Assembly: GCA_022791255.1 (NCBI GenBank)
Contig: JAAVYR010000018.1
Span: 62,001-126,000 of the forward strand
Direction of reading: 5' to 3'
DNA: 64,000 bases
From: Peptococcaceae bacterium
GTDB taxonomy: Bacteria; Bacillota; Dehalobacteriia; UBA4068; JAAVYR01
Positions within the stretch are counted from its first letter, which is position 1. Every line of letters begins with the position of its first letter. Made by a program: the position numbers and the translations under genes. This document shows positions 7,474-57,817 of the stretch, one piece after another. The notes under the pieces were generated by a model, which had not been told where the DNA came from, made no database searches, and saw only the letters and a list, made by a program, of their open reading frames with translations.

Positions 7474-7664
7474 ACAGAAAAGCTCTGCGATGTGCGTGAG
7501 AAAAATCGGATAGTTTTGTTCCAACACACTTACAAAGGGAACCTTACTCGTTTTGTGGCCTATATGCCTCCTTTTTGCGTGGACATAGAAAGCAGGATGG
7601 AGGGTACCCACCTGTCTTAGACAGGTTCAAAACACCGATACACGGCATAGGCGGAGCTTTTTTA
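7474..7664 (+). ncRNA. ssrS: 6S RNA
   Basis: This is a non-coding transcript of about 190 nt. The closing stem is AGCTCTGC (7481-7488) with GCGGAGCT (7651-7658), followed by a T run. The 3' half holds CACCTGTC...GACAGGTTC and then AAAACACCG, typical of Firmicute 6S RNAs. 6S RNA binds the vegetative RNA polymerase holoenzyme as an open-promoter mimic. Its place just after aspS matches the bsrA copy of B. subtilis. A covariance-model search (RF00013) would settle the call. Confidence 0.82.
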
Positions 7665-25988: not shown

Positions 25989-28676
25989 ATGGAAAGAGGA
26001 AAGAGAGGTTTACCACTGTTTGTTGTATTAACGATGGTGATGACGCTAATGCTGGCGTTTTCACTTGCGGCAAATGCAGCGGATGACGAAATTATTATTT
26101 CGGATAGCGATGTCTTCGTGTTGGACCAGTCTGAAATATTGTTAGGCGAAGATGCTGACAAAGAAGCAGAAGAAGAAAATAATGAAGTAATGCTCATAAG
26201 TCCACAGACAGAGGACGAGCATATTCACTCTGTCTGCAATGGGGCAGATTGTACTGACCCAAATCATGCCAGTCATGGAGATATTACCTGGACGGCTTGG
26301 GAAAGCGATACCACTTTGCCGAAGGAGTCCGGTAATTATTATTTGACCAAAGATGTACATGGTACATGGAATACCACGATTGCAAGTGGTGTTAATATAA
26401 AACTTTGTTTGAATGGACACAGCATTGATTTATCCGGAAAAACAGATGCTCGGGGTGCAAATGTGTATATTATTAATCCTGTCGCTGATTTTACATTGTG
26501 TGACTGTGGGGAAACAAGCGGCAAAATCACTGGCGCCGGGAATAGTATCATTATGAACTACGGTACATTTCATATGTATGGCGGCAATCTTGCTGATACT
26601 GCAGCGGTAGGAAATGATGGTGCGGGCGTACAGACCTATGATGGTACATTTAATATGTATGGCGGTAAAATTACAAACAATAAGTCGGATCGTAATGGTG
26701 GCGGTGTGACTGTTACTGGTGCCTATAACGGTGTAAACGGCGTATTTAATATGTACGGTGGTGAAATTTCCGGAAATACTGCAAAATTTGGCGGCGGCGT
26801 AAATGTTACCTCAAATCACACATTCAATATGTATGGCGGTATCATTTGTGATAATGCTACGCTTACCGATCAAGTTAGCAATACCGGCGGGGGTATTTAC
26901 AATAATCACGGTACCATAAATATATACGATGGTGAAATCAGCAGCAATACCGCGAAGGATGGCGGCGGTATCTCTACCAATGGGGACGCTAAGATACTCG
27001 GTGGCAGCATTGTCAAGAATGTGGCATCTGGGAACGGCGGCGGCGTTTTTCTCGCCTCTAATAAAAAAATTACTCTAGGCGGTACGGTTCTGGTAAGCAG
27101 TAATACAGTAAACAATGCCGCAAATAATATTTATATCCAAACGGGTATTCCTTTTGAGATAGTTTCTGATACACCTTTTGCCAAAGGCGCAGAAATTGGC
27201 ATTACCTATTACTATCCAGCTCAGATTACAGAAAAAGCTCCTATCAATGTAACAGCCGCAAACGAAGCTGATTACAGTGCTTATTTCAAAAGTGATGATG
27301 CGAAATTTGTTGTAATAAATACAGATGGTAATATTATCCAGCTTGCCAAAAAGGCGGAAAACCGTACGGAAGACAGCGAAGTAGTAGTGAAAGACGGTAC
27401 GCCTGCTGTCAGTGTAGAGGGACTTGATGTCCTGGCTGCAGAAACTAACCCAACAGCCAAAGATATTAAGATTACTATGACTGTGGAAAGCAAGGCAGCC
27501 GACAGCGCTAATAGCGAACAAACGGAAATAAAAAATATTAGCAGCAGTGAAAAACTGGAGTATCTGGATATTGGACTGATAAAAACTGTTGATACGGTAG
27601 AAAGCTCGATAACCGAAACCACGAAACCGCTGAAAATTATTATTTCCTTTGATGAGAAAGGGAAGAAGAATATCAAAGTCTATCGTTTCCATAATGGTGC
27701 GGCAGAGGTTTTAAGCGATAATGCGGTAGATGATGAATATTACACTGTAGGAGACGGGGCTATTACTGTCTATGCGAAAAAATTCTCTATCTATGCGATC
27801 GGCTATGATGCAGAAACATCTACATCAGGAACAGGCTCTCATCGTGTTGGCGGCGGGAGCACTGACTCTAGTTACAAAGTGACCTTTAAAACAGGGGAAA
27901 ACGGCAGGCTGACTGAAGGCAGTGCAAGTATTTATGTTGACCGTAATGCAAAGATAAAGGATAGCCAAATCCCATCTGTTACAGCTAATGAAGGCTATGC
28001 ATTTATCGGTTGGAGTATAGATGGAAAAACTGTGGCGGAGCCCACAAAGGAAAATATTACGGCAACGACGATCTTTACTGCACTTTATGAAGCCGTAACT
28101 AATCAGGCTACACATGATGCTTATATCATTGGTTATGATGGCGCATTCCGTCCGGATGGCAAGATAACCAGAGCAGAAATGGCCGCAATGCTGGCTCGTG
28201 TAACAGATGGTTTCTCGGAAAAGCAAAGTTATCCATCCTCTTTTGCTGATGTGCCGCAGGGGCTGTGGTATGGGGATTATATTGGTTTTGCGGAACAGAA
28301 AAATATCATAATGGGTTATGAAGATGGTACCTTTCAGCCAGAGGGGTTGATTACCCGTGCAGAATTTGCAACGATGATTGCCCGTTTTGCTGAAATAGCG
28401 AAAAAGGAAGCTGACACCTCGTTTACGGATATTCGTGAACATTGGGCGGCAGAGCAAATCCAAGGCTGCTATGAGGCGGGGTATATGAACGGTTATCCAG
28501 ACCATTCATTCCAGCCGAACCAGCATATGACTCGCGGAGAGGCAGTGGTAGTTATCAACCGTGTCCTTGACCGGGATGATATAAAAGAATTTGATAATCC
28601 TTTTTATGATGTAAACCAAAGTCATTGGGCTTATCAGGCTATTATGGAAGCAGCTGTTAGTCATAGCAGCAAATAA
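25989..28676 (+). CDS. Secreted SLH-domain surface protein with beta-helix repeats
   Basis: The 895-residue protein has a signal peptide (to about residue 31, SLAANA). A right-handed beta-helix-like region of repeated FNMYGG, ISGNTA and GGGV units spans about 180-370. A middle region ends near 620, followed by a Gly-rich spacer. A Listeria-Bacteroides-type repeat (VTFKTGENGR, AFIGWSIDGKTV) comes next, then SLH domains (FRPDGKITRAEMAAML, FQPEGLITRAEFATMI, SFTDIREHWAAEQI) and a final half-SLH. SLH domains anchor proteins to cell-wall polymers. Its own start follows GGAAAGGAAG. Confidence 0.9.
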   Translation: MERGKRGLPLFVVLTMVMTLMLAFSLAANAADDEIIISDSDVFVLDQSEILLGEDADKEAEEENNEVMLISPQTEDEHIHSVCNGADCTDPNHASHGDITWTAWESDTTLPKESGNYYLTKDVHGTWNTTIASGVNIKLCLNGHSIDLSGKTDARGANVYIINPVADFTLCDCGETSGKITGAGNSIIMNYGTFHMYGGNLADTAAVGNDGAGVQTYDGTFNMYGGKITNNKSDRNGGGVTVTGAYNGVNGVFNMYGGEISGNTAKFGGGVNVTSNHTFNMYGGIICDNATLTDQVSNTGGGIYNNHGTINIYDGEISSNTAKDGGGISTNGDAKILGGSIVKNVASGNGGGVFLASNKKITLGGTVLVSSNTVNNAANNIYIQTGIPFEIVSDTPFAKGAEIGITYYYPAQITEKAPINVTAANEADYSAYFKSDDAKFVVINTDGNIIQLAKKAENRTEDSEVVVKDGTPAVSVEGLDVLAAETNPTAKDIKITMTVESKAADSANSEQTEIKNISSSEKLEYLDIGLIKTVDTVESSITETTKPLKIIISFDEKGKKNIKVYRFHNGAAEVLSDNAVDDEYYTVGDGAITVYAKKFSIYAIGYDAETSTSGTGSHRVGGGSTDSSYKVTFKTGENGRLTEGSASIYVDRNAKIKDSQIPSVTANEGYAFIGWSIDGKTVAEPTKENITATTIFTALYEAVTNQATHDAYIIGYDGAFRPDGKITRAEMAAMLARVTDGFSEKQSYPSSFADVPQGLWYGDYIGFAEQKNIIMGYEDGTFQPEGLITRAEFATMIARFAEIAKKEADTSFTDIREHWAAEQIQGCYEAGYMNGYPDHSFQPNQHMTRGEAVVVINRVLDRDDIKEFDNPFYDVNQSHWAYQAIMEAAVSHSSK

Positions 28677-28717: not shown

Positions 28718-28799
28718 TTAATATGCTTTTCGACTATCTAATTTTCTGATTTTGTGCTATACTATCAAATAAAGTATGAAGTTTGATTGGAGTAAGTCT

Positions 28800-29681
28800 A
28801 TGACAATACAATGGTACCCTGGACATATGGCCAAAGCCAAACGCAATATGATAGCAGACCTAAATCTGGTGGATATGATTATCGAAGTGGTGGACGCAAG
28901 AATACCATTGAGCAGCAGAAATCCTGATGTGGATGTTATCGTGGCGAAAAAGCCGCGTCTTTTGGTATTAAATAAAAAAGACTTAGCAGAGGATAAAATT
29001 ACCCAGTATTGGTTGGACTATTACCAGAAACAAGGCTTTGGCGCAGTAGCTGTTAATGGTGCTCAGAAGCAAGGTATCCGTGACTTACTGGCTGCCGCTC
29101 AAAAGTGTGCAGAACCTCTCTGGCTGGAAATGGAACGAAAAGGTAGATTACGTCGTCCTATTCGCTCTATGGTGGTGGGTTCCCCAAATACGGGGAAGTC
29201 TACCATTATCAATGCTTTAGCACCAAGGGCTGTGGCAAAAACAGGCAATAAGCCAGGGGTGACCAAAGGTACTCAATGGATTAAAACGAAAAATAACATC
29301 GAATTACTGGATACACCAGGCGTTTTGTGGCCAAAATTTACTGATGAACGAGTAGGCTTTCGTCTGGCGGTGACAGGGGCTATCAGTGATTTAGTGTTTA
29401 ACCAAGAAGATGTTGCTTGGGAATTATTAAAATGGCTGTTAGATGAAAATCCTGAAGCATTAGCAGCGCGGTATAAGATAGCGGATTTGGCGGCAACGCC
29501 TGAAGAAATATTAGAACAAATCGCGACCAAACGGGGTCTCTTGGGTGCTGGAGGTGTAGTGCGGACAGAACCTGCGGCAGTGCTCCTAATTAATGAGTTT
29601 CGTAATGGAAAAATCGGATGTTTTTCTCTGGACAAGCCAGGAGATGAAGATATCTTAAATCATTTAGAGAAGAAGGAATAA
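28800..29681 (+). CDS. rbgA: Ribosome biogenesis GTPase RbgA (YlqF)
   Basis: The 293-residue protein is a circularly permuted GTPase needed for late 50S assembly. The motif order is permuted as expected: NKKDLA (G4) precedes GSPNTGKSTIINAL (G1) and DTPG (G3). It begins MTIQWYPGHMAKAKRNM. ATG 28800 follows TTGGAG. rnhB follows two bases after the stop, the same neighbour as in B. subtilis. Confidence 0.95.
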   Translation: MTIQWYPGHMAKAKRNMIADLNLVDMIIEVVDARIPLSSRNPDVDVIVAKKPRLLVLNKKDLAEDKITQYWLDYYQKQGFGAVAVNGAQKQGIRDLLAAAQKCAEPLWLEMERKGRLRRPIRSMVVGSPNTGKSTIINALAPRAVAKTGNKPGVTKGTQWIKTKNNIELLDTPGVLWPKFTDERVGFRLAVTGAISDLVFNQEDVAWELLKWLLDENPEALAARYKIADLAATPEEILEQIATKRGLLGAGGVVRTEPAAVLLINEFRNGKIGCFSLDKPGDEDILNHLEKKE

Positions 29682-30952: not shown

Positions 30953-30981
30953 TTGAAAAAAAATGAAAAATATAGTATAAT
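30953..30981 (+). promoter_or_regulatory. Sigma-A promoter of OLE RNA
   Basis: TTGAAA (30953-30958) and TATAAT (30976-30981) are separated by 17 bases, which predicts a start near 30988. Confidence 0.8.
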
Positions 30982-30987
30982 GATTTT

Positions 30988-31580
30988 GCTGGTATGTGGC
31001 GCAGTATTCTAGTCGTCAAACCTTGCTTTGAAGACGGGGCTAAAAATCCGTTAAGGGCATATCGATGAAGTTCCTGGTGCTGGCTTCTGACGCCCAGTCG
31101 GGGGTTGGTAGTGGGAGTTAAGGAGGATAGGGCCATCTCCAATGGCATGGAAGAAAAGGACCCTCCCTCCGTGGAGACCCAAGTGCGTGGGGAATACCTT
31201 TGGTCGGGTAGGAACTATGGCTTGGGGTGAACCTGCATTCGGGTAACACTGGGTGTAGTGTAGCCTGCCTTGAGTGGCAATGGTGGACTGGTGAATTTTT
31301 GCAAATAGGTGCGTCCGGCGACCAAGGACACTATTTTGTATAATGAAACCATTGTTGCAAAAGAGGCTAAAAGCTTGTGTGCGATGTTGAGGAAAACTCC
31401 TAGACTGTTTCCATCTATTGGGGATTAAAGTATGGACTAAGTGGTATTCTGGCCTTGTGTTAGGTAACTGCACAAATCGACCCGTAAAAGGAAACTGCCA
31501 CTCTGGTAACGGAGCGGTGTGGTCGATGGGAAATCCTGCCAGACCTAAGCTATAAAGTTTACTCAATAGGAGTCCATATG
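30988..31580 (+). ncRNA. ole: OLE RNA (ornate, large, extremophilic RNA)
   Basis: This 780-base gap holds no plausible gene on either strand but a GC-richer, structured stretch of about 590 nt behind a good promoter. Size, a downstream gene for a four-helix membrane protein, and the surroundings (dxs, tlyA, argR, recN) match OLE RNA, one of the largest structured bacterial RNAs. In Bacillus (Alkalihalobacillus) halodurans it forms a membrane ribonucleoprotein with OapA. Local helices are easy to find, for example around the GGAAACTGCC segment near 31490. I could not run the covariance model (RF01071). Confidence 0.82.
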
Positions 31581-31611
31581 CCAGCTAATTTTTATATAAA
31601 GAGGTTTTTTT

Positions 31612-32187
31612 GTGGGACATTCCGGTAAAGGGAAAAAAATGAGCAATCTGCAGTTTGCATTGATTGTTTCTATCGGTACATTTTTTGCTGCGGCGTTTAT
31701 TAACTTAACTTCGCAGTCTATTTTAAATAAAATCACCCAACTTTATATAGCCATCGGTCTTTTGCTTGCTGTTATCTTTTTAGGGATTATCTTTGATATT
31801 ATTGGGGTAGCGGTAGCCGTGGCGGATGAAGCACCCTTTCACGCTCGGGCTGCACGCCGTATGCCAGGTGCAAAAGAAGCGTTGAAGCTAATTCGTAATG
31901 CAGATAGAGTTTCTAACTTTTGTAACGATGTGATTGGGGATATTTGCGGGACATTGAGCGGGGGCATCGGCGCTGTCATTGTGTTTAACTTTTTTACCAT
32001 GGGAGCAGAAAATGCTTCTCGTATGCCGGATGTAATTATTGCCGGTATCGTGGCGGCGCTCACTGTTGGTGGTAAAGCCTTTGGTAAAAGTTTTGCCAAC
32101 CGTTGTTCTGATGGTATTATGTGGAAGGTCGGCAAAATTGTCGCCTTTCGGCAGAAGCTATCTCGGAAAAACGCAAAAGCGAAATAA
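31612..32187 (+). CDS. oapA: OLE-associated membrane protein OapA
   Basis: The 191-residue protein has four predicted membrane segments (about residues 12-35, 42-68, 108-128 and 137-155) and a basic tail (RQKLSRKNAKAK). A conserved loop reads ADEAPFHARAARRMPGAKEAL. OapA binds OLE RNA and places it at the membrane. The GTG at 31612 has AGAGG seven bases upstream. A later ATG at 31639 is possible. It follows the RNA by about 30 bases and precedes dxs, so all may share a transcript. Confidence 0.85.
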   Translation: MGHSGKGKKMSNLQFALIVSIGTFFAAAFINLTSQSILNKITQLYIAIGLLLAVIFLGIIFDIIGVAVAVADEAPFHARAARRMPGAKEALKLIRNADRVSNFCNDVIGDICGTLSGGIGAVIVFNFFTMGAENASRMPDVIIAGIVAALTVGGKAFGKSFANRCSDGIMWKVGKIVAFRQKLSRKNAKAK

Positions 32188-32234: not shown

Positions 32235-34109
32235 ATGCTGGAATATATTCATAGCCCAGAGGATATTCGCTCCTTAGATGAAAATGAACTAAACCAATTG
32301 GCTGCAGAGATACGCAAATATTTATTAGATGTTGTCGCTGTCAATGGTGGGCATTTGGCGTCTAACTTGGGTGTGGTAGAGCTGACTTTAGCATTACACA
32401 GTGTTTTTGATTTTTCTCGTGATAAATTGGTCTTAGATGTGGGCCATCAATGTTACACTCATAAAATCTTGACAGGACGGAAGGAAGCCATGACGACGCT
32501 CCGTCAGCAGGATGGCATTAGCGGTTTTCCGAAACATTCAGAAAGCGATTATGACCATTTTAATACCGGGCATAGCAGCACTTCTATTTCTGCTGCTGTT
32601 GGTATGGCTAAAGCTCGGGATATCAAGAAGGAGACTTATTCGGTGGTGGCTGTCATTGGTGATGGCGCTCTTACTGGGGGGATGGCCTTTGAGGCGTTAA
32701 ATCATTCCGGTTACTTAAATACACCGCTGATTATCATATTAAATGACAATAAGATGTCCATTGCCAAAAATGTAGGGGCTATGTCTAGACATTTAAATAA
32801 GCTTCGTACTAGTCCTTATTATGGCAAAAGCAAGGCGACGATTAACTCTTGGCTTAGAAAAATCCCCAAAGTGGGCAATCATATCGCAAATGGTGTGGAA
32901 CGGCTGAAAGATAGTGTTAAGTATCTTTTAGTGCCTGGCATTTTGTTTGAAGAGATGAATTTTACATATATTGGTCCTATCGATGGTCATGATATTCATA
33001 GTATGCAGGAGATTTTTCGCAATGCGAGAAACTTAGACCATCCTGTTATCATTCATGTGTTGACGCAAAAGGGTAAAGGGTATTTGCCTGCAGAAAAGCA
33101 GCCAGATAAATTTCATGGTACACCGCCTTTTGATGTGCTAACAGGAAAGGTTGTGAAAGCGGACCCAAGTGGGCTTACCTATACCCAGGCTTTTGGGGAG
33201 GCGCTGATTGAAATGGCTGCACAATATGAAGATATTGTGGCGATTACTGCTGCTATGCCGGATGGTACAGGACTTGCCAAGTTTGGAGAGGTGTATCCAG
33301 ACCGTTTCTTTGATGTGGGCATTGCAGAGCAGCATGCTGTTACCTTTGGGGCGGGGCTTGCGGCTAGTGGGCTTCGTCCGGTGGTGGCGATTTATTCTAC
33401 CTTTTTGCAGCGGGCATATGACCAGGTATGGCATGATGTGTGTCTGCAAGATTTGCCAGTCATCTTTGCTATGGATAGGGGCGGTTTGGTTCCTGGAGAT
33501 GGAGAAACACATCAAGGTATCTATGATCTTTCTTATTTGCGTACGATGCCAAACCTAGCCATGATGGCACCCAAAGATGAGAACGAGCTTCGACAAATGC
33601 TTTATACAGCTTATCAGCAGCAGCATCCGGTAGCTATCCGTTACCCTAGAGGCTATGGCATGAATGTACCACTAGAACCGTTTCAGGTATTGCCTTGGGG
33701 AAAATGGGAGATTTTAACTGGTGGCGAGGATTTGATTATCTTTGCTGTGGGGCCTCTTTGTGAGGTTGCCATGGAGGTACGGCGAATATTGTATTATCAG
33801 GATATTGCTGTGTCAGTGGTAAATGCACGGTTCCTAAAGCCGTTGGATGAAGAGATGTTGCAGCAAGTTGCAAGAGAAAAAAAGCCTGTGGTTATCTTAG
33901 AGGAAAATGTTGTTGCTGGTGGCTTTGCTGGGGCTTGTGCAGAGTATTGGGCGTTGCAAGATTTGCATGTATCCGTGTTAAGTTTTGGTCTGCCTCTTGT
34001 GGTTCAGGGGCAGGGTTCTGTAGATGTTTTGCGAGAAGAATATGGGCTTACCTCAGAGGCCATTGCAGAAAAGATTTTAGCGAAATGGTTTCCTGAAAAG
34101 GAGAAGTAA
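32235..34109 (+). CDS. dxs: 1-deoxy-D-xylulose-5-phosphate synthase
   Basis: The 624-residue thiamine-diphosphate enzyme joins pyruvate and glyceraldehyde-3-phosphate at the head of the non-mevalonate isoprenoid pathway. Key motifs: GHQCYTHKILTGR, the ThDP motif beginning GDGALTGGMAFEALNH, DNKMSIAKNVG, and the transketolase-like FDVGIAEQHAVTFGAG. The ATG at 32235 follows AGGAGAG. Longer frames upstream overlap oapA and are not expected. tlyA follows three bases on. Confidence 0.96.
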   Translation: MLEYIHSPEDIRSLDENELNQLAAEIRKYLLDVVAVNGGHLASNLGVVELTLALHSVFDFSRDKLVLDVGHQCYTHKILTGRKEAMTTLRQQDGISGFPKHSESDYDHFNTGHSSTSISAAVGMAKARDIKKETYSVVAVIGDGALTGGMAFEALNHSGYLNTPLIIILNDNKMSIAKNVGAMSRHLNKLRTSPYYGKSKATINSWLRKIPKVGNHIANGVERLKDSVKYLLVPGILFEEMNFTYIGPIDGHDIHSMQEIFRNARNLDHPVIIHVLTQKGKGYLPAEKQPDKFHGTPPFDVLTGKVVKADPSGLTYTQAFGEALIEMAAQYEDIVAITAAMPDGTGLAKFGEVYPDRFFDVGIAEQHAVTFGAGLAASGLRPVVAIYSTFLQRAYDQVWHDVCLQDLPVIFAMDRGGLVPGDGETHQGIYDLSYLRTMPNLAMMAPKDENELRQMLYTAYQQQHPVAIRYPRGYGMNVPLEPFQVLPWGKWEILTGGEDLIIFAVGPLCEVAMEVRRILYYQDIAVSVVNARFLKPLDEEMLQQVAREKKPVVILEENVVAGGFAGACAEYWALQDLHVSVLSFGLPLVVQGQGSVDVLREEYGLTSEAIAEKILAKWFPEKEK

Positions 34110-34111
34110 TT

Positions 34112-34930
34112 GTGGCAAAAGTAAGATTAGATGTGTTTCTTTGTGAAGAGAATTATTTTCCTAGCCGAGAAAAAGCTCGGGCAGCCATTATGGCGGGAGA
34201 AGTTATCGTCAATGGGGAAAAGGTAGATAAGGCCGGTTTTCAGGTAAAAGAAGACGCTCAAATTACCCTTGTAGGGGAAAAACTTCCTTTTGTCAGCCGC
34301 GGGGGATTAAAGCTGGATAAGGCCATAAAGACTTTTCCCATTGACCTTACGGGGAAAATCATGGCGGATATCGGAGCTTCTACTGGCGGCTTTACAGACT
34401 GTGCTTTGCAAAATGGTGCAGCGAAAGTCTATGCAGTAGATGTAGGCTATGGACAGCTTGCCTGGTCATTACGGCAAGACCCTAGAGTGGTGGTAAAAGA
34501 AAAAACCAATGCTCGTTATTTAAGTGAAGAAATCATACCTGATTTATTAGATACGGCCAGCATTGATGTTTCTTTCATTTCTCTTACGAAAATACTGCCC
34601 GCCTTAAGTCAAAGAATGCAGGCAACAGGAGAGATTGTTGCTCTGATTAAACCACAGTTTGAAGCTGGAAAGGAAAAAATTGGTAAAAATGGTGTGGTAA
34701 GAGATAGCAAAACCCATCTAGAGGTTATTCAAACTATTCTTGCGTTTCTTCCTGAAGTGGGGCTTTATCCATGGGGTCTGACTTATTCGCCCATTAAAGG
34801 GCCAAAGGGCAACATCGAGTATTTACTTTGGATGAAAAAATATCCACCAGAAGAAGACGCTTTTGATATAACGAACCTGGTGTCTGACATTGTGGGACAA
34901 GCTTTTGGTTCATTAAACCCAAAAGAATAA
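34112..34930 (+). CDS. tlyA: TlyA-family rRNA (2'-O) methyltransferase (YqxC)
   Basis: The 272-residue protein starts with an S4 RNA-binding domain (RLDVFLCEENYFPSREKARAAIMAG) and continues with an FtsJ-like methyltransferase domain (ADIGASTGGFTDCALQNGA, DVSFISLTKILP, LIKPQFEAGKEKIGKNGVV). It is expected to methylate ribosomal RNA. GTG 34112 follows AAAGGAGAAG. It stands between dxs and nadK as in many spore formers. Confidence 0.93.
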   Translation: MAKVRLDVFLCEENYFPSREKARAAIMAGEVIVNGEKVDKAGFQVKEDAQITLVGEKLPFVSRGGLKLDKAIKTFPIDLTGKIMADIGASTGGFTDCALQNGAAKVYAVDVGYGQLAWSLRQDPRVVVKEKTNARYLSEEIIPDLLDTASIDVSFISLTKILPALSQRMQATGEIVALIKPQFEAGKEKIGKNGVVRDSKTHLEVIQTILAFLPEVGLYPWGLTYSPIKGPKGNIEYLLWMKKYPPEEDAFDITNLVSDIVGQAFGSLNPKE

Positions 34931-35049
34931 GAAAATATTTGCAGGAGTGTGTATGAAAGAGTTTCTTTTTTATGCATGCTCCTGTATAATATAGAGAAGA
35001 AGAATATTGCAGTACTCCTAATAGATGAGAAGAGGCAAGGAATAGCTTG

Positions 35050-35916
35050 ATGAATAAAATTGCTATATTTATGAATGACCAAAAGTCCCATGCCTATGAT
35101 TTGGCAGAGCGGATTACCGTTTTTTTTGAAGATCATGGTATACAGGTTTACCATCCTCATGATAAACCAGGGTTTTCTTGTGTAGGGGATTTAGACGAAA
35201 AATATTTTAATGAATTTTCCTCCGTAGATATGATATTGGTGTTAGGGGGAGATGGCACTATCCTTGCGGTGACCCATCTTCTGATTGATTGGAACCTGCC
35301 TATTTTAGGGATTAATATGGGGAAAATGGGATTTTTGGCAGAAGTAGAACTAGAAGACTTGTTTTCTAGCTTAGAGGAAGTCATTGCCGGGCGTTACTCT
35401 ATTGATGAACGCATGATGATCAAAGCTGAGGTGGTTCGCAAGGGGGCACCTATCGCTCCGCTTTACGGTTTGAATGATATTATTGTCAATAAAGGGATAT
35501 TGGCTCGTACGGTAGTCATTGATATTTATGTAGATGGGGAATTTGTTATCGAATATCCATCTGATGGAGTGATTGTCTCTACACCTACTGGTTCTACGGC
35601 ATATTCATTGTCGGCTGGTGGGCCTATTGTAGACCCTAATCTAGCTCTGATGGTGATTAGTGGGGTTTGTCCCCACTTGCTCCATGCCCGTCCTTTGGTG
35701 GTAAGCGGTGATGCGAAAGTGGATATTGTCTTTCACAGCAATGCTGCAAAAGGCGTGGTAACTGCTGATGGTCAACACCCTTTTTTCTTGGAAGATGGAG
35801 ACCATATCCAGATATCTTCTTTTCATAAAAAAGCAAAACTGGTGCGTTTAGGGGAAAAGCATTTCTATGATACTTTAAACCATAAATTAAGTGAAAGGTT
35901 TAGCCGTCGTGTATAA
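35050..35916 (+). CDS. nadK: NAD kinase
   Basis: The 288-residue enzyme makes NADP. The signature GGDGTIL is near residue 65, with GINMGKMGFLAEVE, YPSDGVIVSTPTGSTAYSLSAGGPI and VTADGQ. ATG 35050 follows AGGCAAGG. Its stop overlaps the start of the next methyltransferase gene, which suggests coupled translation. Confidence 0.95.
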   Translation: MNKIAIFMNDQKSHAYDLAERITVFFEDHGIQVYHPHDKPGFSCVGDLDEKYFNEFSSVDMILVLGGDGTILAVTHLLIDWNLPILGINMGKMGFLAEVELEDLFSSLEEVIAGRYSIDERMMIKAEVVRKGAPIAPLYGLNDIIVNKGILARTVVIDIYVDGEFVIEYPSDGVIVSTPTGSTAYSLSAGGPIVDPNLALMVISGVCPHLLHARPLVVSGDAKVDIVFHSNAAKGVVTADGQHPFFLEDGDHIQISSFHKKAKLVRLGEKHFYDTLNHKLSERFSRRV

Positions 35917-36487
35917 AGATGAATTTTCTATTGTAGGTCGGGTACATACTATCTTAGCAGCGGCAATATGCCCAGGGGACACAGTCGTGGACGCTACTGC
36001 CGGGCGGGGTAACGATACGCTCTTTCTGGGCCAGTTAGTAGGGCCTAGGGGGAAAGTATGGGCCTTTGATAGGCAAGCAGAAGCTTGCGATGTCACGAAA
36101 GAAAAATTAGCCCAGCAGCAGATGGGCTGGGTAGAGGTTGTTTGTGACGACCATAGCAAACTGGCCTCTTATATCCAGACGCCAATCAAAGCAGGCGTGT
36201 TTAATCTGGGATATTTGCCAGGGGCGAACCATCAAATCATAACTAAGGGAGAGACGACTCTTGCTGCGTTACAAGCAATGATGGAGCTGCTACTGCCAGA
36301 AGGGGTTATTATCCTTGTGTGTTATTTGGGACATGCTGGGGGCAAAAGTGAATATGATATGATTTATGCGTCGCTGGGCACATTACCAGCTACAGATTGG
36401 TGCGTGGAAGAATACCATTTTATTAATAAACAATTAGCACCTAGAATTATAAAGCTGAAAAGGCTTGCTAAGGGGGATGTAAGATGA
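35909..36487 (+). CDS. YtqB-family SAM-dependent methyltransferase
   Basis: The protein is about 192 residues. The Rossmann SAM-binding motif is VVDATAGRGNDTLFLGQLVG, followed by VWAFDRQ and NLGYLPGANHQIITK. The family (PF06962) is called rRNA methylase, but its target is not firmly known. The start is uncertain: GTG 35909, preceded by AAAGG, overlaps the nadK stop; GTG 35891 is also in frame. The end overlaps argR by four bases. Confidence 0.85.
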   Translation: MYKDEFSIVGRVHTILAAAICPGDTVVDATAGRGNDTLFLGQLVGPRGKVWAFDRQAEACDVTKEKLAQQQMGWVEVVCDDHSKLASYIQTPIKAGVFNLGYLPGANHQIITKGETTLAALQAMMELLLPEGVIILVCYLGHAGGKSEYDMIYASLGTLPATDWCVEEYHFINKQLAPRIIKLKRLAKGDVR

Positions 36488-36936
36488 AAAGCCGCAGACA
36501 TAAAGCAATCCGAGAAATTATTGAAAATAAAAGTATCGAAACCCAATTCCAGTTAACCGAAGAGCTGATGAAACATGGTTTTCATGTGACCCAGGCGACT
36601 ATATCTCGGGATATTAAAGAATTAGGATTGATTAAGGTGGCGGCGGGAGATAATGTGTTTGAGTACAGCTTTCCGTCTAATGTGATGGCAGGTAATGCTC
36701 ATGAACGGGCAAAACGAATGCTAAGAGACAATGTTCTCAAATATAATAGCAGCGGTAATATGGTGGTTATTCGTACTTTGCCGGGCATTGCCCAAGGGAT
36801 GGCTTCTTGCATTGATAATCTAGGCTGGAAGGAATTAGTGGGGACTGTTGCCGGAGATGATACTATTTTTCTTTTAGTCAAAGAAGATGTTAGCTGTGCC
36901 CAGGTGATTGAACGACTGCAGGCTTTAGGACAATAA
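36484..36936 (+). CDS. argR: Arginine repressor ArgR/AhrC
   Basis: The 150-residue protein has the N-terminal winged helix (HKAIREIIENKSIETQFQ, then HVTQATISRDIKELGLIK) and the C-terminal arginine-binding hexamerization domain (IRTLPGIAQGMASCIDNLG, GTVAGDDTIFLLVKE). It controls arginine synthesis and breakdown genes. It overlaps the preceding gene and is 30 bases from recN. Confidence 0.95.
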   Translation: MKSRRHKAIREIIENKSIETQFQLTEELMKHGFHVTQATISRDIKELGLIKVAAGDNVFEYSFPSNVMAGNAHERAKRMLRDNVLKYNSSGNMVVIRTLPGIAQGMASCIDNLGWKELVGTVAGDDTIFLLVKEDVSCAQVIERLQALGQ

Positions 36937-36966
36937 ATCTAGATGGGACCAAAGGGGTGGCAAAGA

Positions 36967-38655
36967 ATGTTAAAAGAATTATATGTAGAAAATTTTGCCC
37001 TCATTGAAAAGCTGCAACTGCCATTTAGCGAAGGGTTAAATGTGCTTTCAGGGGAAACAGGGGCCGGGAAATCTTTGATCATTGACGCCATGAGCCTGAT
37101 TATGGGTGCTAGGAGTCAGCAAGAGTTTATTCGTACCGGTGTGGATAAATGCTTGGTACAAGCGGTCTTTGACGGGCCTTTTTCTGCTGAGGTGATAGCT
37201 GTTTTAAACGATGTGTGTCATATCTCTTGTGATTTTTTAGAGGATGATTATTTGATTTTAGCCAGAGAATTGCAGCAAAATGGGAAAGGTATTTGCCGTA
37301 TTAATAATGTTACGGTGCCTTTAAGCAGTTTTCGCATATTGGGCAGGGCTTTGGTGAATATTCATGGGCAAATGGAGCATATTTCTTTGTTAGATGGGGA
37401 TAAGCAAATTGAGATATTAGACAGCTTTGCTGGGGAGAAAGCTATCGCTCAAAAGGTGCTGGTACAAGAGGCTTTTGCAGTTTGGCAACAATTGGAGAAG
37501 GAAAAAAGAGAGTATGAGGCCGCCCAACAGGATTGGGCGCGGAACATTGATTTTCTATCTTTTCAGTTAGATGAAATTGCGCAAGCTGGTTTGGTTCCAG
37601 GGGAGCAGGCAGAATTGGAGCAAGAAAAAACTTTATTAGAAAACAGTGTGAAAATCAGTCAAGGTATGGAGGAAGCAATAGGGTTTTTACGGGGTGGTGA
37701 ATATGGCGGCGGTGCTTTAGACGGTCTGCTTTCTGCCAAACAGGCTCTTTCCGGACTTGCTCATTTGGATGACCGTTTGCAAGACTTAGAAGAACGGTTA
37801 GGAGATATTTATTATAATGCGGAAGACTGCATGCAGGAGATTTCTCATTATCAACAGGAAATCCCAGAGGATATGGGCCGACTAGATGAGATTAATGAGA
37901 GATTAGACCAAATCAAGAAGATTTTGCGGAAATATGGTAATACGGTAGAAGAGGTACTTTGCTGGCAAGAAGAGCATAGTGCGGAATTAGAAGGACTTCT
38001 CAACAAGCAGGAAAATAGTGCTCATCTAGATGATTTGATAGCGGAAAAACAAGCTGATTATCAAAAGAAAGCCGCTGTTCTTACCCAGCTGCGGGAGGCG
38101 GCAGGGGAGGCGTTGCGTGGGGCTATTAATGGACAGTTGCAGGATTTACAAATGAAGCAAGCCGATATTTTGGTTCAGCTGATACCAGGCAAACCTTCTA
38201 GCCATGGTAATGAGTCTGTGGAATTAATGATACGCTCTAATGTAGGGGAAGATTATCATCCTGTAGCGAAAATTGCTTCTGGCGGGGAAATGTCTAGGGT
38301 GATGTTGGCGGTGAAAGTTGTGATTGCCCAGTTGGACCATGTTGGTACCATTATCTTTGATGAAGTCGATACGGGCATGGGCGGGGAGGCGCTCAATGCA
38401 GTAGCGGTGAAGCTAAAGGCTGTTGCGCGTTATGGACAAGCTTTGTGTGTTACTCATAATCCAGTGGTGGCAGGCTTTGGTGATAGTCAGATTTATATTT
38501 ATAAAGAGACCAACGAGGGTAGGACTGCTACTCAGGCGGTGGTTTTGGATGAAGAGGGCCGCCTGCAGGAAATCTGCCGTATGTTGGCTGGGGAAAATAT
38601 TACCGAGGCTGCTATTGCAAGAGGAAAAGAAATCCTTGCCCAAGGCAGAAGCTAA
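36967..38655 (+). CDS. recN: DNA repair protein RecN
   Basis: The 562-residue SMC-like ATPase acts in double-strand break repair. Walker A is SGETGAGKSLIIDAM (about residues 28-42). A long coiled coil spans about 160-370. The C-terminal ABC signature is SGGEMSRVMLAVK, with Walker B TIIFDEVDTGMGGEA. ATG 36967 follows AAAGGGGTGG; the in-frame ATG at 36943 has no site. The unit ends in a bidirectional terminator. Confidence 0.96.
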   Translation: MLKELYVENFALIEKLQLPFSEGLNVLSGETGAGKSLIIDAMSLIMGARSQQEFIRTGVDKCLVQAVFDGPFSAEVIAVLNDVCHISCDFLEDDYLILARELQQNGKGICRINNVTVPLSSFRILGRALVNIHGQMEHISLLDGDKQIEILDSFAGEKAIAQKVLVQEAFAVWQQLEKEKREYEAAQQDWARNIDFLSFQLDEIAQAGLVPGEQAELEQEKTLLENSVKISQGMEEAIGFLRGGEYGGGALDGLLSAKQALSGLAHLDDRLQDLEERLGDIYYNAEDCMQEISHYQQEIPEDMGRLDEINERLDQIKKILRKYGNTVEEVLCWQEEHSAELEGLLNKQENSAHLDDLIAEKQADYQKKAAVLTQLREAAGEALRGAINGQLQDLQMKQADILVQLIPGKPSSHGNESVELMIRSNVGEDYHPVAKIASGGEMSRVMLAVKVVIAQLDHVGTIIFDEVDTGMGGEALNAVAVKLKAVARYGQALCVTHNPVVAGFGDSQIYIYKETNEGRTATQAVVLDEEGRLQEICRMLAGENITEAAIARGKEILAQGRS

Positions 38656-39551: not shown

Positions 39552-40319
39552 TTATGCTAATTTTTCTCCCATTCTGATTTTATCTGCAACCATGGCGATA
39601 AATTCGGAATTGGTGGGTTTGCCTCTTTCCACATTGATGGTATAGCCGAAATATTTATTCATTAAATCTACATTACCTCTATCCCAGGCAAGTTCTATCG
39701 CATGACGGATGGCTCTTTCTACACGGCTGGCTGTGGTATCATATTTTTCTGCTACAGCAGGATAAAGCTCTTTTGTAACAGCACCGATAAGATTTACTTC
39801 ATCTGCTACCAAAAGAATAGCGTCTCTTAAGTATTGATACCCTTTGACATGGGCGGGGACACCCATTTGATGAATGATTTTGGTTACTTCAACACTCAAA
39901 TCTTTTGTTTTGGTAGAAACTTTGTTATCTTCGGGGATACCTTCATAGAGCTGTTTGATGCGTGAAGCGAGAATAGGCAAGTCAAAGGGTTTTAAGATGT
40001 AATAATTGGCACCTAATTCTACGGCTTTTTGGGTCATGGTTTCTTGTCCTAATGCGGTCAAAATGATGATTTGAGGGCGTTCTGGAAGGTTCATTGCGTT
40101 GATTTTTTCTAGAACTCCAATACCATCTAAATAAGGCATAATCAAGTCCAGAATAATGACATCGGGTACTTCCTTATCAATGGCTTCTAGCGCTTCCAGA
40201 CCATTGTTGGCGATGCTTGTAATACGGAATTCTTCTTGTTCTGTGAAAAATTCCTCTAAAACATCACAAAATTTCTTGCTGTCATCAACAATTAGCAAAT
40301 TAATAACATTTTCGTGCAT
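39552..40319 (-). CDS. spo0A: Stage 0 sporulation master regulator Spo0A
   Basis: The 255-residue response regulator starts sporulation. The receiver domain carries VDDS (Asp 12 and 13), the phosphoryl acceptor Asp58 in [11 protein letters not shown], and Lys108-like KPFDLP. The C-terminal Spo0A DNA-binding domain includes [20 protein letters not shown] and [27 protein letters not shown] precedes ATG 40319. Its gene is downstream of spoIVB, as in B. subtilis, and has its own sigma-H-like promoter and 0A boxes. Confidence 0.97.
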
Positions 40320-40367
40320 TTCTTTCCCACCTTTTGTAAAAAATAAAATCTTTCTTTCGCACGAATT

Positions 40368-40396
40368 TATTTCGACGGTTCAAAACCATATCCTTC
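40368..40396 (-). promoter_or_regulatory. Sigma-H-like promoter of spo0A
   Basis: On the minus strand GAAGGATAT (40396-40388) is a full match to the sigma-H -35 pattern. After 11 bases comes GTCGAAATA (40376-40368), one mismatch to the -10 pattern. The -10 box overlaps a possible 0A box (CGTCGAA). Confidence 0.65.
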
Positions 40397-40472
40397 AAAA
40401 GAGGCTGCATAAATATCCACAAATTTACGACAGATATCGACATGTTCCTTGGGTTTAACAGCATTTTTTTCA

Positions 40473-40481
40473 TTCGACAAA
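40473..40481 (-). promoter_or_regulatory. 0A box upstream of spo0A
   Basis: TTTGTCGAA on the minus strand is a perfect match to the Spo0A operator. Weaker matches lie at 40436-40442 (TGTCGAT) and 40371-40377 (CGTCGAA). Confidence 0.7.
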
Positions 40482-40499
40482 ATTACAAAGCTTCAAAAA

Positions 40500-41789
40500 T
40501 TAACTAATTTTTTCATCAATTTCTGCTTCTTCAATCATCCATTGTGCGAGACAACCGTAACCTTTTGTCGGGTCATTAATAAAAACATGCGTAACGGCAC
40601 CGATAAGATACCCGTCTTGGATGATCGGACTGCCGCTCATGCCTTGGACGATGCCGCCTGTCTTTTCTAAAAGGGTGGGGTCCGTTACTTTGACGATAAG
40701 CCCCTTGCCGCTAGGTTTTTGCTGTAGCATGACTTTTTCGATTTCTACAGAAAAAGTCTCCATTTCGCTGCCTTCTAGTACAGTGATGATTTCCGCTGGG
40801 CCCTCATGGACTGTTTCTGGCAGCGCGACTGGTAATAGCTCTGGATAAATATCATTGCGAAGGGGCTCGTCTATAACGCCAAAAACGCCTAGTTCGCAGT
40901 TTTTTTCGATGGTGCCTTGCCAGCCACCGCCAACAAAAACACCAATTTTTTCCCCAGGAACACCTTTTTGTCCTGGTTTTACACCTTGGATTTCCGACTC
41001 TATGATAATACCTTTATTTTCACCTTGTTCACTTTTGCCATCTAAATCTGCAATCATGTGTCCTAATGCACCATATTTGCCTGTTTGCGGCTCATAAAAA
41101 GTCATTGTGCCGACACCGGCGGCGTTATCCCGCACATAAAGACCAATGCGGTAGCTGCCTGTATCATAGCAATATCCTGGCTGGACTGTAATATCTACTA
41201 GGCCATTTTCTCGTTTTACTGTGAAGGTAATAGCGTTGCCATTGGCACCATATTCATTAATTAAGTCAGCGACTTGATAATCATCAATTACCTCAATGCC
41301 ATTGATTTTCGTGATAAAGTCTCCCAAATTAAGGCCAGCTTCTTTTGCTGGGTAATAAACACCGCCTTGGGCATCTACTACCGGAGAGTAGCCCACCACT
41401 GTGACGCCTCTGGTTTGCAATAGGACGCCTACAGACTGTCCGCCAGAAAGTACCCGCAGTGGTGTGACGACTTCTACTTCTACTGTTTTTAAGGGAACCG
41501 TGTCAAAAAGGGCATAGTTTACTTGATAGGTGCCAGGTTGCAGGCGGTCTTCTTCTGGTTGGAAATCTGCTACCATTTCACCGATGGCGGTACTTTCCTT
41601 TTGCCAGGTAACGGTGGCATATTTATTTGAAAAAGAGTTCATGTTGGTTAATGTCGAAATTTCCTCACCGGCTAATACACGGATTTTATCTGGTAACAAT
41701 AAATATTGACTATTTAAAATGTTAAAAGAACAACATAAGACAAGGGCTGACATCCAGAATTTTAAAATGTTTTTTTTCCTGCTAAACAT
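40500..41789 (-). CDS. spoIVB: SpoIVB serine peptidase
   Basis: The 429-residue protein is made in the forespore, secreted into the intermembrane space, and triggers sigma-K activation by cleaving SpoIVFA. An N-terminal membrane segment (residues about 10-27) is followed by a PDZ domain (DFITKINGIEVIDDYQVADL) and the S55 peptidase domain with the catalytic Ser in GMSGSPIIQDG. CAGGAGG precedes the ATG. In a species that must rebuild sigK, this gene keeps the activation arm complete. Confidence 0.94.
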   Translation of the reverse strand: MFSRKKNILKFWMSALVLCCSFNILNSQYLLLPDKIRVLAGEEISTLTNMNSFSNKYATVTWQKESTAIGEMVADFQPEEDRLQPGTYQVNYALFDTVPLKTVEVEVVTPLRVLSGGQSVGVLLQTRGVTVVGYSPVVDAQGGVYYPAKEAGLNLGDFITKINGIEVIDDYQVADLINEYGANGNAITFTVKRENGLVDITVQPGYCYDTGSYRIGLYVRDNAAGVGTMTFYEPQTGKYGALGHMIADLDGKSEQGENKGIIIESEIQGVKPGQKGVPGEKIGVFVGGGWQGTIEKNCELGVFGVIDEPLRNDIYPELLPVALPETVHEGPAEIITVLEGSEMETFSVEIEKVMLQQKPSGKGLIVKVTDPTLLEKTGGIVQGMSGSPIIQDGYLIGAVTHVFINDPTKGYGCLAQWMIEEAEIDEKIS

Positions 41790-46185: not shown

Positions 46186-46974
46186 GTGGGCGTTTCAAAC
46201 TTAGCCGGAGCCGAGCGATATGGCCATGAGATACTCTCAGATGCCGCATGCAAACAGCTCATCAAACAAGCGCAGCAGGGAGATAAATCGGCTAGAGACC
46301 AATTGGTAGCTTCTAATCAACGGTTGGTTATCGGTTTCGTTCGTCGTTTTGCAGGAAGAGGCGCTGAAGAAGAAGATTTATTTCAAATGGGAATGATTGG
46401 GTTACTGAAAGCCATCGACCATTTTGATTTATCCTTTGAGGTGTGTTTTTCTACCTATGCAGTGCCTGTTATCATGGGGGAGATGCGTCGCTACCTTCGA
46501 GATAATAGCAGTATCCGGGTAAGTCGTTCTGTTAAGGAATTGGCTTACCGTGCTTTGCAATTAAAGGAAACCTTACAGAAAGAGGAAGAAAAAGAACCTA
46601 CCATTGAGCAATTAGCGGTACTTTTAGGCAGGAAAAAAGAAGATGTGATTTTGGCATTGGAGGCTGTTCGGCCGGCCAAATCCCTATATGAGACAGTGGG
46701 GGAAAATAAAGATGGCACATCTATGGAGCTCTGGGAACGTATCGGTGATACGGGCGATGCTACTGGGGACTGGTTAGAAAAGCTGAATTTAGAACAGTGT
46801 TTGGCACTTTTAACCCCAAAAGAACAGTGGGTATTCCGGAAACGGCATTTGATGGGCCTTACCCAACAGGAGATTGCTGCAGAATTACATTTGTCACAAG
46901 CACAAATCTCTCGGTTAGAGAAAAAAGCATTGGCAAAAATCAAAGAATTTTATACAGAGGACAATGAGGAATAG
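46186..46974 (+). CDS. sigF: Forespore sigma factor sigma-F
   Basis: The 262-residue sigma-70-family protein directs early forespore transcription. Region 2 reads DLFQMGMIGLLKAIDHFDL and FSTYAVPVIMGEMRRYLRD. Region 4 reads LTQQEIAAELHLSQAQISRLEKKALAKIKE. GTG 46186 is preceded by AGGTAG. It is the last gene of the spoIIA operon. Confidence 0.95.
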   Translation: MGVSNLAGAERYGHEILSDAACKQLIKQAQQGDKSARDQLVASNQRLVIGFVRRFAGRGAEEEDLFQMGMIGLLKAIDHFDLSFEVCFSTYAVPVIMGEMRRYLRDNSSIRVSRSVKELAYRALQLKETLQKEEEKEPTIEQLAVLLGRKKEDVILALEAVRPAKSLYETVGENKDGTSMELWERIGDTGDATGDWLEKLNLEQCLALLTPKEQWVFRKRHLMGLTQQEIAAELHLSQAQISRLEKKALAKIKEFYTEDNEE

Positions 46975-50299: not shown

Positions 50300-50446
50300 G
50301 TATTAAAACATCAAGTAGAAGTATCCGCTTCTCACCTTATGGCAGTCAGGCACATAAGGTTTATAACAAGTTTGTCAGTTCGGTGTTTATCACCATAATG
50401 GCGTCTTTTTATAAGCGGGTATTTTTTACCCGCTTATTTATTTTTT
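50300..50446 (+). promoter_or_regulatory. L20-type ribosomal protein leader with attenuator
   Basis: The leader has GTATCCGCTTCTCACC near 50320, as in Firmicute infC (L20) leaders. AAGCGGGT (50413-50420) pairs with ACCCGCTT (50428-50435), followed by a T-rich run, forming the terminator. L20 is thought to bind the leader and reduce read-through. Confidence 0.78.
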
Positions 50447-50460
50447 GGAGGTGAAACCGC

Positions 50461-52636: not shown

Positions 52637-52658
52637 AAAAATAATTTTATAAGTAGTT

Positions 52659-52768
52659 ATCTTCAGGGCAGGGTGAAATTCCCTACCGGTGGTATAGCCC
52701 ACGAGCCATAACCTGGCATGATTTGGTGAAATTCCAAAGCCGACAGTATAGTCTGGATGAAAGAAGAT
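52659..52768 (+). promoter_or_regulatory. FMN riboswitch (RFN element)
   Basis: The closing stem is ATCTTC (52659-52664) with GAAGAT (52763-52768). Inside are the conserved FMN pieces AGGGCAGGGTGAAATTCCC, CCGGTGGTATAGCCC and GATTTGGTGAAATTCC. FMN binding should end transcription at the hairpin that follows. Confidence 0.95.
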
Positions 52769-52792
52769 GTTGCATTTGCTGTAGTTTATAGT

Positions 52793-57374: not shown

Positions 57375-57817
57375 TGGTAAAGATTTAACTTCGCCTTTTG
57401 TTTCAGAAAGGTTGTGGTTTGATGTTTCCGAGAGATAACTATTGGCATCTTTTTGAAGAAACAGGTTCTATTGCCGCCTATATGGAGTATCGTAAATACA
57501 CTATAGGATAATATGGCAGCAAGAGAACAATATTTTTTTATAAGAGAAAAGCGATAATCGGGATAAGATATTAGATAAACTTTTGTTTCAGGGAGCAAAG
57601 GCCATAGACTGTAAGCCTTGCCAAAAGTATCATATCCATTCACCCGGGAGTTGGGTTTCTGAACAAAATTTATGAGTTGATTTTTATTAGGAAATCCCGG
57701 TGGCATACCGTTATCATGCAAAAAGTGAGTCTTTTTATTTACTGAAAAAGACTAATTTGGGTGGTACCGCGGAGCCTTTCGTCCCTAAAATAGTTGGGGA
57801 GGAAAGGCTCTTTTTTA
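57375..57817 (+). promoter_or_regulatory. T-box leader of pheS-pheT, unusually long
   Basis: The T-box sequence TGGGTGGTACCGCGG begins near 57758. The terminator is GAGCCTTTCGTCCC with GGAAAGGCTC and a T run (57772-57817). The leader is about 440 bases, nearly twice the other two here. A TTC that could be the Phe specifier lies at 57657-57659, in GGGTTTCTGAAC, but it does not align as cleanly as the Thr and Asp specifiers. The upstream 200 bases hold no gene. Confidence 0.8.

Follow-up and report, generated by a model that had tools for sequence, protein, structure and literature searches.

The window, the whole 64,000-nucleotide stretch analysed here, very probably carries an intact OLE ribonucleoprotein locus whose RNA belongs to a class-wide group with predicted pairing between the apical loops of P9.3 and P7. 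The two hairpin loops, L7 and L9.3, display covarying complementarity. Few conserved bacterial RNAs that lack a known biochemical function are as large as OLE, which is known as an abundant RNA of about 600 nt at the membrane; the structure of its dimer is recent and was obtained with clostridial sequences. The locus adds a new member to a known class of loci, a genuine OLE RNA beside oapA. Its features are listed in Table 1.

Table 1. Features of the OLE locus in the window
Feature	Position	Strand	Description
Sigma-A-type OLE promoter	30953–30981	+	TTGAAA 30953–30958, 17-nt spacer, TATAAT 30976–30981
OLE RNA (RF01071), full length	30980–31593	+	covariance-model match
A-rich P4 loop CUAAAAAU	31040–31047	+	sequence and model alignment
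J4a/5 UAUCGAUGAAG	31060–31070	+	matches RF01071 consensus
P7 apical loop UUGGUCG	31200–31206	+	perfect complement of P9.3 loop
P9.3 apical loop CGACCAA	31319–31325	+	differs from published self-complementary GGCC
oapA, 191 aa, GTG start at 31612	31612–32187	+	homology, DxxxD, predicted fold
dxs, 1-deoxy-D-xylulose-5-phosphate synthase	32235–34109	+	
tlyA-type methyltransferase, nadK, putative rRNA methylase, argR, recN	34112–38655	+	
putative rRNA methylase	35891–36487		between nadK and argR

An earlier note, made from the letters of this DNA alone, had proposed that an untranslated structured RNA in this region is OLE and had named the lack of a covariance-model hit as an outcome that would speak against it. 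The identification is decisively borne out: the RF01071 covariance model matches from position 1 to 616 of 616 with 451.5 bits (E = 2.6e-129; gathering score 50). The score also exceeds the 390-bit cut-off for 'full-length' OLE RNAs of PMC11332333, which was set with a different model. By covariance-model search the source genome has a single copy of OLE, while none of 14 control genomes contains one. The RNA has a promoter of its own, as that note had also claimed, which matches the consensus at 11 of 12 positions and whose −10 box sits at the same place in relatives (correct-strand loci only). The first few bases of the OLE match overlap this box, and transcription would be expected to start near 30988. 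The + strand shows no terminator-like site in the gap from OLE to oapA, so read-through followed by 3′ trimming is likely. By analogy with Halalkalibacterium halodurans, in which the 3′ end of OLE is processed (PMC11332333), the RNA would be made from its own promoter, probably in part on a transcript that runs into oapA and is then trimmed.

With this covariance-model match the stretch is explained as an RNA, and the match refutes its identity as coding sequence or as a long, non-OLE leader of oapA, to which we assign a negligible probability. The stretch does lie 5′ of oapA with no terminator-like site in between, and a 171-codon antisense frame (31051–31566, − strand) is found inside it, but the model match runs end to end and OLE is found in 43 of the 61 genomes searched around the source genome. 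Furthermore, two genomes (G003 and G032) have OLE and oapA separated by a further ORF, and OLE is therefore not simply a leader. Of these intervening ORFs (L121, 2637–2900, − strand; L122, 1493–2209, − strand), one encodes an 87-aa cysteine-rich product and the other a hydrophobic one.

Alignment to the RF01071 consensus places the conserved A-rich P4 loop and the kink-turn region in the window OLE. In the published structures dimer bridge B1 forms at the P4 loop (PMC12286853), and J4a/5 belongs to the kink turn that OapC binds in H. halodurans (PMC9723947, PMC12286853). The 5′ side of P6 (31120–31126) reads AAGGAGG, a perfect Shine-Dalgarno-like sequence, in keeping with the SD/anti-SD mimic that bS21 has been reported to bind (PMC12054373).

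The published OLE dimers are held by contacts of the P4 loops (B1), of L5/L6/L7 (B2) and of a symmetrical L9.3 kissing loop (B3), in which the palindrome GGCC kisses its own copy and covaries to GAUC or AGCU (PMC12286853). The structure providers count L7 as part of B2 (PMC12412911), and according to a review neither P7 nor P8 takes part in the dimer contacts (PMC12265935). Similar to the Clostridium acetobutylicum dimer (cryo-EM, PDB 9MCW, PMC12286853), the window OLE has the A-rich P4 loop, the kink-turn region and the L5/L6 loop sequences GCCCA and UGGC. Unlike that dimer, in which L9.3 self-kisses via GGCC, the window RNA has an L9.3 that is perfectly complementary to L7 over 7 nt. A self-complementary L9.3, a feature of the solved dimers that does not define the family, is absent from the window OLE. 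The earlier note, right about the identity of the RNA, had missed these altered P7 and P9.3 loops.

Across the window's class, L9.3 is mostly a non-palindromic GACC and L7 in the same RNAs is UUGGUC[G/A]. Loops were taken from hairpins folded between conserved anchors, as a whole-OLE MAFFT alignment misaligned P9.3. A P7 loop with GGNC is found in 25 of 26 class members versus 6 of 177 distinct OLE RNAs outside the class, a comparison that favours the class in that mis-extracted loops (L110, L107, L136, L100) were re-read by motif for its members only. In the 177 outside RNAs the extracted L9.3 contains GGCC in 139 and some palindrome in 159, and complementarity of the class type occurs in four. 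A chance match of the 4-mers GGUC (L7) and GACC (L9.3) was considered and rejected: the window match extends over 7 nt, is class-specific and covaries. The class is not uniform: the L9.3 of genome G002 contains the palindrome GUCGAC, and in both members from families f4 and f5 the loops pair over four bases only.

Three of the four core pairs (3–6) are constant over the 26 class members: pairs 3 and 4 are G-C and pair 6 is C-G throughout. Pair 7 is looser (unpaired in 10). Pair 5 is U-A in 22 members, U-G in two (L138, L144), C-G in one (L096, genome G028) and A-U in one (L102, genome G033), with no mismatches. A tree built without the two loops places two changes at L7 position 5 and three at L9.3 position 3. 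Each L7 change falls on the same terminal branch as a complementary change in L9.3 (GGAC with GUCC, GGCC with GGCC), and the remaining L9.3 change results in a U-G pair. Support from covariation consists of two double changes plus the U-G intermediates. The 7-bp register is 87.3% paired versus 6.7–42.9% in slid registers (18 distinct rows), and a second count of the intended register gives 100% of 72 cells paired. The covariation score of this register was reached in 6 of 500 shuffles and a permutation of pair 5 gave p = 0.004, values that retain the relatedness among the sequences and come from an exploratory analysis in which rules were adjusted after looking and the statistics were run on the same sequences that suggested the idea.

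Predicted duplex energies follow the same division. The class medians are −7.9 for the L7:L9.3 duplex and −0.5 for an L9.3 self-duplex, versus −0.9 and −9.1 outside the class; the window values are −8.8 and −0.5. By this measure L7:L9.3 is the preferred duplex for 22 of the 26 class members, whereas the self-kiss is preferred for 160 of the 177 RNAs outside the class; the input was motif-picked heptamers for the class and extracted loops for the rest, so the two sets were handled differently.

We infer from these sequences a lineage-specific P7–P9.3 kissing loop that would stand in for the B3 self-kiss. The P9.3 loop would pair with the P7 loop, either of its own RNA or of the partner, and this contact would replace the published self-kiss or exist alongside it; the sequences fit both an intramolecular contact and one between RNAs. 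A rewired dimer, in which two L7–L9.3 kisses between partner RNAs replace the symmetric L9.3–L9.3 contact throughout the class, is a tentative reading to which we give somewhat less than even weight. Such a class-wide swap, if true, would be a natural test of whether it is important to close the P9 arch and whether OLE works as a dimer. The pairing of L7 with L9.3 is new to us, and an earlier mention in the OLE literature is possible.

It is unlikely that the dimer is an ordinary one, in which G-C pairs on either side of A-C mismatches let L9.3 kiss its own copy while the match to L7 is inherited and makes no contact. Common descent could explain loops shared among the related class members, three members (L096, L138, L144) keep a GGCC in L9.3 and could still self-kiss, and P7 is given no dimer contact in the review cited above (PMC12265935). 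However, L7 and L9.3 changed together twice, predicted self-pairing is near zero in most class members by the medians above, and the GGNC loop of P7 is specific to the class. More doubtful still is that each loop is conserved by a separate protein or RNA binder, with no mutual pairing. OLE binds many proteins (PMC12054373) and L7 is UUGGUC in nearly all class members, but separate binders fail to predict the matched GGAC/GUCC and GGCC/GGCC changes on the same branches.

Outside the class, genome G044 (L083) has L7 UGGCUCC and L9.3 GGAGCCA, a 7-nt match with a non-palindromic L9.3; its order is otherwise unrepresented in the genome collection. In family f20, several genomes carry CGGC opposite GCCG, without covariation, which makes this family a suggestive second case of L7:L9.3 complementarity. 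A similar loop switch may have arisen separately in G044 and in family f20. Overall, a non-palindromic L9.3 with a complementary P7 loop is seen outside the class in L083, L084, L187, L199 and L219.

The oapA gene begins 18 nt past the OLE match, with AAGAGG just 5′ of its GTG. Its product had been taken for OapA, the protein known to bind OLE RNA 2:1, and this assignment holds. The protein is 38–97% identical to 39 OapA-family proteins, contains hydrophobic stretches as expected of a membrane protein, and carries the DxxxD motif as D106-VIG-D110, with D106 and D110 invariant across 40 sequences. This motif separates OapA from CNNM proteins (PMC11332333). The AlphaFold model (mean pLDDT of 80.7) has a predicted fold that resembles CNNM: its four best PDB matches are all the archaeal CNNM protein MtCorB, with TM-scores of 0.48–0.56 but weak E-values of 0.012–0.24. 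Searches of Pfam and NCBIfam with the sequence gave no match at the usual thresholds (a weak CNNM match has E = 0.015), and a PDB sequence search returned nothing useful. OapA resembles MpfA/CorC Mg2+ transporters in predicted fold and in this weak match, but unlike them it carries DxxxD and lacks both CBS and CorC domains. All ten tested loci brought in through OapA homology have OLE, cut by the contig end in two of them.

The remaining partners are encoded elsewhere in the source genome (1.56 Mb, estimated 96.8% complete). OapB (112 aa) was located through its position between map and infA; it matches PDB 7k9b (E = 2.6e-10) and was not picked up by the PF00467 profile. The OapC/YbxF-type protein is an 82-aa L7Ae-type protein (L119:3328–3576) that matches YbxF structures and is encoded between rpoC and rpsL, an interval that we take to mark YbxF. 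A bS21 gene is present. OLE, OapA, OapB and OapC are all retained in this small genome. By analogy with H. halodurans, OapA would hold the RNA at the membrane, while OapC would bind the kink turn, OapB P13 and bS21 P6, and the particle would support growth in the cold, in the presence of alcohol or Mg2+, and on poor carbon.

The source is a small-genomed relative of Peptococcaceae with an intact OLE ribonucleoprotein locus. Its nearest named relatives are one Clostridia MAG and one Peptococcaceae MAG. The earlier attribution to the OLE loci of extremophilic and anaerobic Firmicutes stands as far as the OLE locus is concerned; nothing in these relatives or in the small genome shows an extremophile. 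OLE had also been expected to narrow the taxonomy: it argues against Negativicutes (PMC11332333) and otherwise narrows it only to Bacillota. As in H. halodurans, the RNA is full length, oapA lies directly downstream, and OapB, OapC, bS21 and ArgR are encoded. Unlike in H. halodurans, where OLE is part of a polycistronic RNA (PMC12265935), the window OLE has its own promoter, different upstream neighbours and mutually complementary L7 and L9.3. The TANB77/RF39 gut clades with variant OLEs share the small genome and, as far as the named relatives show, the status of an uncultured lineage of host or sludge type, but their P7/P8 are short or missing and they largely lack OapB and OapC (PMC11332333), whereas here the RNA is full length and both proteins are kept.

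OLE and MpfA anticorrelate across Bacillota (PMC11332333), and in the window's order they likewise exclude each other. The source genome has no match to a full CNNM-domain (PF01595) protein and no MpfA. At a cut-off of E below 1e-15, full CNNM matches are present in 1 of the 19 genomes of the order that carry OLE and in 13 of the 16 that lack it (Fisher p = 4.6e-6), and within family f2 alone in 0 of 4 versus 13 of 16 (p = 0.007), p-values that overstate the case because the genomes, being related, are not independent. Three genomes have neither OLE nor MpfA; they are 61, 73 and 89% complete. By analogy, the OLE particle perhaps does the work of the MpfA-type Mg2+ exporters found in OLE-less relatives. 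With related genera that have either OLE or MpfA, the order holds a natural experiment on the role of OLE in Mg2+ handling. One locus, L123 (G056:C15:389500–394500), has a weak full-span OLE match (1843–2499, 169.9 bits), and the oapA-like stretch after it is interrupted by five in-frame stops; a full CNNM-domain protein is encoded in the same genome. It looks like an OLE–oapA pair decaying after MpfA took over.

Upstream of OLE lie a ribosome-assembly-type GTPase gene (28776–29681), rnhB and a UPF0102 gene. Downstream, the dxs-tlyA-nadK-argR-recN order given in the earlier note is confirmed, except that it had omitted the rRNA methylase gene. In the 1.56-Mb genome, Spo0A, SpoIVB and a SigF/SigG-type sigma factor are retained (39552–41789, − strand; 46186–46974, + strand), with spoIVB-spo0A oriented against recN. 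A protein of 895 aa with three S-layer homology domains is encoded at 25989–28676 (+ strand). Further Rfam matches above gathering scores, all on the + strand, are a 6S RNA (7479–7661), an L20 leader (50307–50447), an FMN riboswitch (52655–52772) and a T-box leader (57545–57789).
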